From Comamonas sp. lk (GTDB lineage Bacteria > Pseudomonadota > Gammaproteobacteria > Burkholderiales > Burkholderiaceae_C), in assembly GCF_900564145.1 (NCBI RefSeq), contig NZ_UOOB01000001.1:2730754-2794753 (forward strand): a DNA stretch of 64,000 nucleotides, in the 5' to 3' direction. The position numbers were made by a program, and so were the translations under genes. Shown here piece after piece: positions 28,660 to 30,953 of the stretch. Positions within the stretch are counted from its first letter, which is position 1. Each line of letters begins with the position of its first letter. The notes below the pieces were generated by a model. The model made no database searches and had not been told where the DNA came from. It saw nothing but the letters and a program-made list of their open reading frames with translations.

Positions 28660-28688
28660 ATCTTACCCACGGGTAATTATTATTGCAA
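28660..28688 (-). promoter_or_regulatory. PL-like early leftward promoter
   Basis: On the minus strand TTGCAA (28688-28683) and TAAGAT (28665-28660) are separated by exactly 17 bp. The spacer and -10 overlap operator OL1. The same -10, spacing and operator placement occur at the rightward promoter. Confidence 0.65.
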
Positions 28689-28701: not shown

Positions 28702-28753
28702 TTTAATTTGCTTGTCAGGTAAGCTTCCGTCATGGGCACACACCACACAGACG

Positions 28754-28779
28754 CAAAAAAGCCCGCGCCAGGCGAGCTG
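28754..28779 (-). terminator. Weak early hairpin 10
   Basis: AAAAAAGCCCGC (to 28766) with GCGAGCT (28772-28778) gives a 7-bp stem with one mismatch, T-run on the minus strand. It resembles the other hairpins but is decayed. Confidence 0.35.
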
Positions 28780-28846
28780 TTCTGGTTGCTGGCGGAGCTT
28801 CACAGGAGAAAAATTGAATCATCAACGCACTTCCAGGAGAGCGGCG

Positions 28847-28933
28847 ATGTCTAATTTCATGATGCAGCTGGTTGGCCTTTGGCTATTGATGCTGCTTGTG
28901 GCCTGGTTGATTTACGAAGTCAAAGATCACTGA
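28847..28933 (+). CDS. 28-aa membrane peptide
   Basis: ATG 28847 to TGA 28933 encodes 28 residues: MSNFMMQLVGLWLLMLLVAW then LIYEVKDH, a single hydrophobic helix with a charged C-terminal end. A good AGGAGA ribosome site lies 6 bp upstream. It is oriented rightward next to the OL region, against the operon. Too small for family assignment; the ribosome site and clean helix are the evidence. Confidence 0.5.
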   Translation: MSNFMMQLVGLWLLMLLVAWLIYEVKDH

Positions 28934-28990
28934 CAGTGAGGTGATCTTTACAAGACTGCTGACTTGAATCCAAGAAAGGAGGCAGCTGGA

Positions 28991-29113
28991 ATGACTCACC
29001 CACCGAAAGATCCAAACAAAGACCAGGACCCCCAGCCTGAGCCTATTGATCCGCCGAGCGATGTGCCACCGGTTGAACTACCGGGAGATCCGGTGCAACA
29101 GCCGAACGTGTAG
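28991..29113 (+). CDS. 40-aa proline-rich acidic peptide
   Basis: ATG 28991 to TAG 29113 encodes 40 residues, MTHPPKDPNKDQDPQPEP onwards, with about a third Pro and many Asp/Glu, ending in PDPVQQPNV-like sequence. It follows a perfect AAGGAGG. Similar short Pro/Asp-rich peptides occur in proteobacterial genomes without known role. It lies directly downstream of the 28-aa membrane peptide and may be co-transcribed with it. Confidence 0.6.
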   Translation: MTHPPKDPNKDQDPQPEPIDPPSDVPPVELPGDPVQQPNV

Positions 29114-29114
29114 G

Positions 29115-29141
29115 CGTAAAAAAGCCCGCTGGGGGCGGGCT
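29115..29141 (-). terminator. Terminator of the repressor operon
   Basis: AGCCCGC (29123-29129) pairs with GCGGGCT (29135-29141) behind AAAAAA, giving a T-run on the minus strand. It follows the gene ending at 29162, the last of the cI-led operon. Confidence 0.7.
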
Positions 29142-29161
29142 GGATGTGAGAGCTGTGAGAG

Positions 29162-29617
29162 CTACTTTTGCATCGTGGGTGCAGATTCTGGCGTGCGCAA
29201 TGGGGCAGCGCTCGGCACGTTGATGATGATGGGCGGCTGCGTGGTGGTTTGTGCAGTCGTAGGAGCAGGTGCCGGTGATGACTGCTTGAGCGCATTGCTC
29301 ATTGCAAGGAAAAGACCACCAAACCCAAGGAAAAGGCCAATGACCGTTCCGATCATCCACTTGTGGATTTCTATGCTGCTCTTGTGCATTTCTGCTCGAA
29401 GATCGGAGATCCCTGTCTTGACGTCAGCACGCAGCTCTGCAAAGTCCGCTTTGGTGGGCAGATTCTTTACAGCTTCCTCAAGAGATTTGACACGGGCTTC
29501 CATGACTGAATCATACCCTCCCCCGGATCCGCCGTCATTGGCCAGTTTATTTCGATCCGATAAAGATGAAAATTCTGACATTATTTCAGCCGTATTCTGC
29601 TGAGTAACTACTTTCAT
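29162..29617 (-). CDS. Coiled-coil single-pass membrane protein (rexB position)
   Basis: 151-aa protein. Residues about 37-85 form a charged heptad-like coiled coil (MEARVKSLEEAVKNLPTKADFAELRADVKTG), then one transmembrane helix at about 87-107 (WMIGTVIGLFLGFGGLFLAM), then a Pro/Thr-rich tail. The layout resembles phage coiled-coil/TM proteins of the DUF1640/XhlA-like kind but no family is certain. The upstream RNxxxH gene ends within 2 bp of this ATG (a GTG at 29626 would overlap it), so the two are coupled. Placed last in the cI-led operon before a terminator, it is in the position of lambda rexB and would be made in the lysogen. Confidence 0.7.
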   Translation of the reverse strand: MKVVTQQNTAEIMSEFSSLSDRNKLANDGGSGGGYDSVMEARVKSLEEAVKNLPTKADFAELRADVKTGISDLRAEMHKSSIEIHKWMIGTVIGLFLGFGGLFLAMSNALKQSSPAPAPTTAQTTTQPPIIINVPSAAPLRTPESAPTMQK

Positions 29618-29618
29618 A

Positions 29619-30005
29619 TTACTCACTTTTCTGGCCTTTTAGGTATATTACCAAGTCCAATCCAAGTTGAAGAAAAGCTTTTTTGGATTCTATGCGTAGA
29701 TCATCATAGTTGGAGAAGCTTGATTGGATGTTATCAATTAAATCTTGTACTAGGATTTGCTCTGTATCTGATGTGTGCCCCGAGTTCATTCGGGCGTCAA
29801 TATTATGTGAAACTAAATTCCTTGTTGACTTAAGGTAATCAAATATAGCAGTAGCTTCTTTCACGCTTGCCAGATGACAGTCAAAAAATGAGTTAATTAT
29901 TTTATTGTTTCTTTCATTTGCGAGACCGCCAAGGCTGTCGAACATTGCGATTAATTCTTTATCTATACGATCAAGAATTATCTTGTTATCATCTGATTTA
30001 CTCAT
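29619..30005 (-). CDS. Small helical protein with RNxxxH (HEPN-like) motif (rexA position)
   Basis: 128-aa predominantly helical protein, clearly more AT-rich than its neighbours. Residues about 62-67 read RNLVSH, matching the R-N-x-x-x-H signature of HEPN ribonucleases, preceded by a helix with AIFDYLKSTR and followed by a polar loop and helix. HEPN domains are all-helical and of this size, and many serve in toxin-antitoxin or abortive-infection systems. One short motif does not prove the fold. It lies downstream of the CI-like repressor on the same strand and is coupled to a membrane protein. It may instead be an unrelated helical protein. Confidence 0.65.
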   Translation of the reverse strand: MSKSDDNKIILDRIDKELIAMFDSLGGLANERNNKIINSFFDCHLASVKEATAIFDYLKSTRNLVSHNIDARMNSGHTSDTEQILVQDLIDNIQSSFSNYDDLRIESKKAFLQLGLDLVIYLKGQKSE

Positions 30006-30088
30006 GCCGAACCTTTAAACAAATGAATGCGATGCTTGCGTCTGCTCTTTGGTGGCGAACCCCGTTCCTTTGGAATACCAGAATCCAT
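30002..30088 (-). CDS. Possible 28-aa basic peptide
   Basis: ATG 30088 to TGA 30002 encodes MDSGIPKERGSPPKSRRKHR plus eight residues. AAGGG precedes it and its stop overlaps the start of the RNxxxH gene (ATGA), suggesting a coupled leader. An alternative 31-codon frame (30110-30015) occupies the same gap. Low confidence because of size. Confidence 0.3.
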   Translation of the reverse strand: MDSGIPKERGSPPKSRRKHRIHLFKGSA

Positions 30089-30123
30089 GCCGCCCTTGCT
30101 CAACAGTCATGCAGCCTCTAATT

Positions 30124-30873
30124 TCAGTATTGCTCGCTACGCCACACGGTCAGAATCTTCCCAATCACATGGAAGTCCGGATGCTTCGGTGAAATGTCGT
30201 AGGGGGGGAAGTCTTCTTTGTTCTTCGAGATGATGCGCAGCACGAACCCAGGTTTGTCGAAATTGGGCACGCGCTGGATGATCTTGATGAAGCCTTCATC
30301 ACCCAAGCGGAAAAAGTAGATGCCCTCATGGTCGACGTGATTCACACCACGGTCCATAAGCAACGGGTCACCAGGGTTGAAGATCGGCTTCATGGATGGC
30401 CCGAAACCAGTGACGATGCATAGATTGCTGATGCTGGTGTAGACCGGCACATTGAGGCGCAGCCACTCCTTGTCAACGCGCCAGCTCTTGATAACGCCAG
30501 GTGGTTCAGCCTCCAGGATCAGCTTGCCGCCATTGCCCATGGCGCCACCCACGTCGTACTGCGTGATGACTAGGTCATGCTCACTGCCACTCGCGGACGG
30601 CGACTCGTAAGGTGATGAGGCCACTTCATGAGCGGAAGGCGCGGCAAGACCGCTGAATAAGGCGTGCTCTCCAGTGAAAAAAGAAGGATAAGCACCCAGT
30701 AATAGCAGGGCGGTGTCTTCGCCGATTCGCTTGGCTCCACTCTTTTCTGCTGGGTAAAGCATCCGAGAGACGTAGCTGGCGTCTTTGCCAATTTGCTGCG
30801 CAATGCTAGCGATGCCGCCCCGACCCAAAGAATCGACAAGGTTCTGAAGCGCTGAGCGGCGTTGTTCGTACAT
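30124..30873 (-). CDS. CI/LexA-like phage repressor (S24 peptidase)
   Basis: 249-aa repressor maintaining lysogeny. N-terminal helix-turn-helix (IASIAQQIGKDASYVSRMLYP, about residues 21-41); C-terminal LexA-type autoprotease with the catalytic Ser in GFGPSMKPIFNPGDPLLMDRG and Lys in EGFIKIIQRV, so SOS-induced self-cleavage is expected. ATG 30873 is chosen because AAGG lies 6 bp upstream; starts at 30879 or further out would run into operator OR3. It is divergent from the Cro/YdaS-like gene with three operator-like sites between, and heads an operon including the RNxxxH and coiled-coil genes. Confidence 0.9.
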   Translation of the reverse strand: MYEQRRSALQNLVDSLGRGGIASIAQQIGKDASYVSRMLYPAEKSGAKRIGEDTALLLLGAYPSFFTGEHALFSGLAAPSAHEVASSPYESPSASGSEHDLVITQYDVGGAMGNGGKLILEAEPPGVIKSWRVDKEWLRLNVPVYTSISNLCIVTGFGPSMKPIFNPGDPLLMDRGVNHVDHEGIYFFRLGDEGFIKIIQRVPNFDKPGFVLRIISKNKEDFPPYDISPKHPDFHVIGKILTVWRSEQY

Positions 30874-30899: not shown

Positions 30900-30953
30900 T
30901 TACCTGCAAGTAAATAACCCTCAGGTATTGCTTGATTGATTACCCGTGGGTAA
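30900..30953. promoter_or_regulatory. OR-like operator cluster
   Basis: Three related 14-mers: TTACCTGCAAGTAA (30900-30913), TAACCCTCAGGTAT (30915-30928) and the perfect palindrome TTACCCGTGGGTAA (30940-30953). The outer spacing of 25 bp equals that at OL. They lie between the divergent repressor and Cro-like genes. Confidence 0.75.

Follow-up and report, generated by a model that had tools for sequence, protein, structure and literature searches.

A prophage of Comamonas sp. lk carries two small genes behind its repressor gene, in the place that rexA and rexB hold in lambda. The stretch of DNA analyzed here (the window) comprises 64,000 nucleotides, positions 2,730,754 to 2,794,753 of contig NZ_UOOB01000001.1 (assembly GCF_900564145.1). 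One gene encodes a 128-residue protein and the other a membrane protein with a coiled coil and one transmembrane (TM) segment. The original prediction, made from the letters alone, treated the pair as a two-gene exclusion system. We do not find a conserved pair: elsewhere the membrane gene stands next to many unrelated partners, and the 128-residue gene is found only in this prophage. The position of the operon, its operator-like sites, the overlap of its genes and the exchange of partners were all computed here. We read the operon, with slightly less than even confidence, as a candidate exclusion module expressed in lysogens, in which a constant membrane stalk would tether a swappable cytosolic partner.

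All elements of the predicted same-strand operon are present, from a CI-like repressor through the 128-residue gene and the coiled-coil/TM gene to a terminator. They are:

30124..30873, minus strand: CI-like repressor with an S24 domain (MYEQRR...), the first gene of the presumed lysogenic operon
30002..30088, minus strand: possible basic open reading frame (ORF) of 28 codons, doubtful
29619..30005, minus strand: 128-residue orphan protein, AT-rich gene, predicted to be helical, with R62NLVSH67 and E31RNNK35; a HEPN-like candidate
29162..29626, minus strand: membrane protein with a coiled coil and one TM, 154 residues from GTG, or 151 residues from ATG 29617
29123..29141, minus strand: intrinsic-terminator-like hairpin with a T run, which closes the operon

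The repressor matches Peptidase_S24 (E 1.4e-9) and the repressor family phrog_4 (E 1.9e-18). Between CI and the 128-residue gene lies a gap of 118 bp, in which our scan found neither a terminator-like nor a promoter-like site and the RNA fold is not unusual (z 0.75). The shared strand, this gap and the terminator-like hairpin behind the last gene make expression with the repressor likely, as had been proposed. The stop of the 28-codon ORF overlaps the start of the 128-residue gene by ATGA; the ORF has no relative among the fetched loci.

What does the membrane gene keep, and what does it exchange? Counting itself, its protein has 222 matches at E<=1e-3; it recurs in loci of betaproteobacteria, many of which are prophages. 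In the fetched loci (given L numbers below) 41 matches are distinct, counted at E<=1e-6 and as differing in the last 80 residues. A small coupled gene lies directly upstream in 27 of the 41; the partner is of a CxxC type in 12 and lacks CxxC in 15. An S24-type repressor ORF lies within 2.5 kb upstream in 18 of 49 distinct matches from an earlier pass, in which many whole-genome flanks reached only 1.5 kb. Zinc-ribbon-like small partners of the form CRYGHG...CxxCGYxE precede the membrane gene in L004, L010, L018, L019, L049 and L061; that of L049, the sole one scanned, reached no Pfam family at cut-off.

The coupling seen in the original prediction stands, but its 151-residue start at ATG 29617 probably does not. 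GTG 29626 is favored because AAAGG lies 8 nt before it and because it creates an 8-bp overlap with the 128-residue gene (GTGAGTAA); counting the window, 13 of the 27 coupled loci overlap by 8 bp. The coupling rule favored overlaps of 8, 4, 1 or 11 bp equally.

The beginning of the membrane protein appears to follow the partner. Next to CxxC partners the start is short and strand-like (MVKVLDI, MGAVHNF, MPVVDF); next to partners without CxxC it is helix-like (in the window, QNTAEIMSEFSSL). N-terminal helix propensity differs between the two classes (12 versus 15 loci, exploratory p 5e-5). When near-duplicates L027 and L150 were dropped and L192 added, the comparison of 12 with 14 gave exploratory p values of 5e-5 to 1.4e-4 over three window sizes. 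L192 (with its near-copy L193) is the sole locus seen after the hypothesis was formed, and it fits the trend. On a tree of the stalks the partner class changes 11 times (shuffled mean 8.7), with at least five changes required by starred branches. Of five independent pairs, 4.3 on average show the N-terminus moving with the class, and none shows the reverse. Two pairs of loci locate the break. DNA identity between L020 and L019 is 80% from the linker on but falls to 65% ahead of it, where 30 shuffles average 61 and reach 64 at most; between L064 and L066 it is 84% from linker to TM and 63% before (shuffles: mean 59, highest 66). Since similarity of the stalks begins in the linker in both pairs, partner and docking peptide may move together as a cassette. 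These comparisons suggest that the N-terminus covaries with partner class.

Behind the variable first 20-35 residues, the membrane protein has a regular order: a Gly-rich linker, a conserved stalk from MEARV, LPTKAD, the TM, and a Pro-rich tail with PIIINVP. The TM (about residues 88-106 in the 151-residue form) is the sole clearly hydrophobic segment in a hydropathy scan. In 20 aligned relatives there are 2-3 Lys/Arg before the TM and one after it, a balance that suggests an N-terminus inside the cell; the Pro-rich tail probably faces the periplasm. In DUF1640-type proteins the stalk starts with a beta layer of consensus [aliphatic]-A-T-K-[polar]-[DE], and such layers are described in trimeric coiled coils (PMC4786415; here and below, papers are cited for those parts of their text that were available). 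L53-P-T-K-A-D58 agrees at four of the six positions (P for A, A for polar) and LATKAD of relatives at five, and P54-D58 is at least 90% conserved in 20 sequences. Because DUF1640-type layers are described in trimers, the stalk is by analogy probably trimeric. Pfam cut-offs are missed, with 13.2 against 33.5 bits for CCDC90-like and 20.8 against 24.9 for DUF2730, and we say that the protein resembles DUF1640-type stalks and do not file it as a member. Like DUF1640/CCDC90-like stalks, DUF2730 and XhlA, it has a coiled coil with a similar TK-x-[DE] motif and then a TM anchor; unlike them, it adds the Pro-rich PIIINVP tail behind the TM and an apparently swappable N-terminal peptide. Searches for further relatives found no match to the membrane protein in phages and plasmids at E 1e-5 and none to relatives P0058 and P0049 in phages at the same threshold. 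P0030 gave no extra locus in viral contigs, and P0012 gave four, all on contigs already covered. Within the order there was one match besides the window at E 1e-8, and a second family draw gave no new match.

The operon lies in a true rex position, flanked by OL/OR-like operator clusters as in lambda; here too the original prediction is borne out. The pattern TTACCNNNNGGTAA, with at most one mismatch, has four sites in the 64 kb against 0.44 expected, and none of 100 shuffles reaches four. Two sites lie on each side of the repressor operon, those at 28663 and 28688 to one side and those at 30900 and 30940 to the other. We derived the pattern from sites already seen; the better evidence for operators is recurrence in relatives, which had no part in shaping the pattern. 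A longer, stricter pattern at three mismatches gave 17 matches against 12.6 expected, which is not above chance, so the one-mismatch pattern alone was used. RecE- and RecT-like genes lie to the left of the left operator cluster, and DnaB, terminase and portal genes to the right of cro. This arrangement is that of lambda, in which recombination genes are followed by OL, rex, cI, OR and cro. In IMG/VR the prophage is record IMGVR_UViG_2844196250_000003. The features around the operon are:

28663..28676: OL-like operator TTACCCACGGGTAA
28688..28701: OL-like operator ATACCAACGGGTAA, 25 bp from the OL-like site at 28663
28847..28933, plus strand: convergent 28-residue ORF with a single TM by eye, between the OL-like sites and the cargo
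28991..29113, plus strand: convergent 40-residue gene (PEPIDPPSD); in relatives L061 and L062 this gene delimits the cargo on its far side
30900..30913: OR-like operator TTACCTGCAAGTAA
30915..30928: weaker possible third OR-like site, with three mismatches to TTACCYGYRGGTAA (matches at this level are not above chance)
30940..30953: OR-like operator TTACCCGTGGGTAA
30946..31251, plus strand: divergent Cro-like protein, with a YdaS match below the curated cut-off

The Cro-like ORF overlaps an operator, and its true start is probably downstream of it. At the other end, small convergent plus-strand ORFs (28712-29113) start immediately inward of the OL-like operators and point at the repressor operon; in L058 a longer ORF (MTTHHADEKKPAD...), similar to them by eye, occupies the same place.

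What fills this slot in related prophages? A script examined 94 loci that have a cro relative; some of these overlap, being copies of a single contig. Forty had no CI ORF by rule, and 15 non-redundant loci were kept, each with an OR-like site and an OL-like site at most 6 kb from CI; the other 39 were duplicates or had no sites so placed. The window's spacing (39-40 bp within the OR pair, 25 bp within the OL pair) is found in 8 of these 15. Their slots are listed with the distance from CI to OL; the contents were described by eye, except for the membrane protein and CI.

L089 (the window's own locus), 1423 bp: 128-residue orphan and membrane protein
L090, 1267 bp: 81-residue TM-like, lipoprotein-like and 113-residue proteins
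L091, 1710 bp: nearly the same 81-residue protein, a 252-residue AT-rich lipoprotein-like protein, and a 118-residue relative of the 113-residue protein of L090
L093, 914 bp: 85-residue AT-rich protein and membrane protein
L099, 985 bp: 87-residue CxxC/CxxC protein and membrane protein
L101, 1837 bp: 278-residue protein and 170-residue HEPN-like protein
L107, 172 bp: nothing beyond a 62-codon ORF that overlaps CI
L131, 2196 bp: 116-residue CI-like fragment and 298-residue ORF, behind a short CI match of 173 residues

The membrane protein is present in three of the eight, each time with an unrelated partner. L099 and L101 are the same loci as L061 and L062. Identity to the window there is 67 and 66% for cro, 36 and 37% for CI, and 65% for the convergent PEPIDPPSD gene; the relatedness of these flanking genes confirms that the slots are homologous. 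L107 (the same contig region as L076) is a natural empty rex slot, with 172 bp from the repressor stop to the OL-like operator and the usual operator spacing. In L058, L060, L070, L071 and L072 the C-terminal domains of the repressors are related and their N-terminal DNA-binding parts are of two kinds, MDMYEQRR... and MTDIDEIRR.../MRDIDQIRR.../MKDIDEIRR...; with one C-terminal type and two N-terminal types, the repressor appears to be built by domain exchange.

The window's own partner is an orphan. Its frame is genuine, staying open in only 1 of 20,000 mononucleotide shuffles, and the gene looks acquired, since its GC content is 35.1% and that of the window 58.7% (membrane gene 50.5%, CI 55.2%). 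Against 5.8 billion proteins, in a search that needs shared five-residue words, one of 13 candidates passed, the protein itself; 399 family genomes likewise returned it alone. In viral contigs one of 18 candidate stretches passed and proved to be the same prophage, and phages and plasmids gave no match. Neither did Pfam, PADLOC, NCBIfam or PDB sequences, and PHROG gave weak matches only (E 0.094 and 0.14). No significant match in Pfam, NCBIfam, PHROG or PADLOC linked this singleton to RexA (DUF4747), with no profile-profile comparison made. Both proteins are without a significant match to any library family, in keeping with the earlier statement that they do not resemble RexA or RexB. One candidate homologue was rejected. 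The 80-residue partner in L159 had an initial phmmer E of 1.1 among 10,776 ORFs and a 25-residue match, and a profile search seeded with both proteins found, beyond the query, six 80-residue proteins only. A model of these six placed the 128-residue protein at E 5.6, rank 13 of 10,911 and below 4 of 2,000 shuffles.

Is the orphan a HEPN ribonuclease, as its RNLVSH motif had been taken to hint? HEPN proteins are defined by Rx4-6H with N, D or H after the R and by an acidic Ex3[KR] motif upstream; Ex3[KR] lies in helix 2 and the R/H motif at the end of helix 3 (PMC3710099). R62NLVSH67 has the Rx4-6H form with N after R. By chance, 10.9% of shuffles of the protein contain Rx4H, as do 30.2% of 2,109 mechanical ORFs with 100-160 residues; for RNxxxH the figures are 0.9 and 0.95%, respectively. 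The motif alone is weak evidence for HEPN. E31RNNK35 fits Ex3[KR], and in a low-confidence model it shares one long helix (31-74) with R62. The same RNxxxH form is seen in Tha-1, a HEPN protein of prophage defence, as RNSIMH (PMC11087260). Tha of Staphylococcus aureus prophages is also a prophage-encoded defence of RNase type; unlike the orphan, it has 301 residues with a C-terminal HEPN domain, its available description includes no membrane partner, and we liken the two by motif alone. The HEPN-TM system of phage-inducible chromosomal islands (PICIs) combines, by its name, HEPN and a transmembrane component in a mobile element, and is likened by name only, from a partial source. We are doubtful that the orphan is a HEPN protein; an RNase effector role is plausible.

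The L062 slot holds a weakly HEPN-like protein, which counts in favor of HEPN in the window. This 170-residue protein is related (E 4e-16) to one that L006 encodes two genes upstream of its membrane gene. The HEPN matches of this family are weak (PADLOC HEPN_IX 0.016 and 0.029, HepT-like_2 0.092 for L006 alone). It is present in 9 of 284 family genomes, that of L006 included, and in none of 53 of the genus; five of the nine HEPN-like ORFs (L195, L196, L197, L198 and L200) are preceded by a gene for 247-279 residues. L062:3891-5239 is an independent two-gene unit, a 247-279-residue protein and then a HEPN-like one (SRAYYAxxH ... ADY); besides the rex slot of this one prophage, it occupies other places in the family (L195-L198 and L200).

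How might such a module work? In the mechanism that we propose, we infer expression, topology, trimer, docking, exclusion and RNase activity alike. The operon would hold accessory cargo of a temperate phage at the site of lambda rex, and lysogens would express it on the transcript of the repressor. The membrane protein would serve as the constant platform: a coiled-coil stalk, fixed in the inner membrane, whose N-terminus lies in the cytoplasm. The peptide at its very N-terminal end would dock one cytosolic partner, encoded just upstream and translationally coupled, and partner and peptide would be exchanged between phages together, as a cassette. In the window the partner would be the 128-residue orphan and the docking peptide would be helix-like. 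The tethered partner may be kept quiet or positioned at the membrane until infection is sensed and it is released or activated. It would then act, in this prophage perhaps by cleaving RNA in the manner of HEPN proteins; the infection would abort, most likely protecting the lysogen against other phages. The fullest form of this proposal, to which we give distinctly less credence than an even chance, sees in the membrane protein the fixed part of a plug-in immunity platform used by temperate phages of betaproteobacteria: on a trimeric stalk, peptide and cognate effector or sensor are swapped as a single recombination cassette inside the OL-CI interval, with the orphan as a recently acquired effector, possibly a membrane-held HEPN RNase.

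Several observations weigh against the exclusion module and its parts. No coupled gene was found by rule in 14 of the 41 distinct loci, although in one of these, L050, a CxxC gene lies just outside the rule. The partners without CxxC (class H) are the remainder, short and mostly helical-looking proteins that do not make up one family. In three Collimonas genomes (L005, L007 and L009) the relative of the membrane gene stands outside any repressor operon seen; the same 413- and 196-residue neighbors lie beside it in all three, which suggests a settled chromosomal role. The hypothesis about the N-terminus was formed and tested on the same loci, which makes its p values exploratory; L053 contradicts the trend and the class ranges overlap, and a simpler measure, where the first Gly or Pro falls, shows no significant difference between classes (p 0.18). 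The stalk tree was a quick one, of 25 rows with four long branches, and the independent-pairs test is underpowered (p 0.125). LPTKAD departs from the DUF1640 consensus at two of six positions. The single-sequence model of the orphan is all-helical and poor (pLDDT 63, pTM 0.40), and a fold search with it listed spectrin-like, I-BAR and other generic coiled coils, HEPN not among them; we treat these matches as meaningless because of the model's pLDDT. The defence library PADLOC (2.0.0) gave no match for the orphan and one weak match for the membrane protein (E 0.036). Finally, the promoter scan found no promoter-like site ahead of CI; it was at chance level (three sites against 3.2 expected) and, with none before CI either, says little about expression.

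The known systems closest in layout suggest another division of labor. Lambda RexAB, RexABpp of Pseudomonas putida, Sbash gp30/gp31, CarolAnn and Butters gp30/gp31 likewise have adjacent cytosolic and membrane genes, there expressed in lysogens, and the lambda and P. putida pairs lie in the repressor operon, as the genes do here; PMC12894663 counts five such RexAB-type systems. In RexAB the membrane protein is the effector (PMC12894663). The orphan might then be a helical, non-enzymatic sensor and the membrane protein an effector that damages the membrane once the sensor binds. We think this unlikely, though worth serious attention: layout and position are those of RexAB, the membrane protein is the conserved part here, and RNxxxH, at 0.9% of shuffles, may be chance. 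Yet the membrane partners of described RexAB-type pairs have four TM segments (PMC12894663, PMC6426596, PMC7542560), whereas the protein here has one TM and a long coiled coil and no library match to those families; with a single TM, a pore would need oligomers. One effector would have to serve many unrelated sensors, which is possible, and exchange of the partner gene with the membrane protein kept is itself a difference from RexAB-type pairs.

Rather improbable, in our judgment, is a lysogenic-conversion pair for host fitness, an envelope or stress trait with no role against phages. Viewed by eye, the sister slots L058/L090 and L059/L091 do contain lipoprotein-like genes and genes for small membrane proteins, and the charge balance makes the Pro-rich tail probably periplasmic. 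On the other side, PMC8585504 describes a mosaic hot spot behind cI that includes an exclusion gene, and the L062 slot carries the weakly HEPN-like two-gene unit. That exclusion gene, bstA, lies downstream of cI; BstA was studied as a single protein, unlike the two-gene arrangement here, and we liken it by position and not by sequence. Least probable, and in our view very unlikely, is a role in lysogeny itself, in which the cassette would adjust the switch, or the activity of the repressor, at the membrane instead of excluding phages: lambda RexA also biases the lambda switch (PMC11077077) and the membrane gene lies in the repressor operon in three of the eight same-spacing loci, with a repressor upstream in the 18 of 49, but the empty slot of L107 with the same operators and the other genes elsewhere imply that the switch does not need the cassette, and partners change while CI and cro remain related.

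A membrane stalk with exchangeable partners, the reading that we prefer, is the newest feature of an operon otherwise akin to known RexAB-type pairs. The literature covered (titles and the beginnings of abstracts, most subscription papers falling outside) does not describe this membrane-protein family in repressor operons. The L019/L020 pair, with stalk genes closely similar behind the linker, offers natural matched and mismatched combinations for docking. If the reading is true, it would explain how unrelated small proteins can share one membrane platform. The rex slot of a whole phage group would become readable mechanically, since the operators mark both its ends, and a constant stalk with a variable head would flag the partner gene, even where that gene is an orphan missed by family searches.

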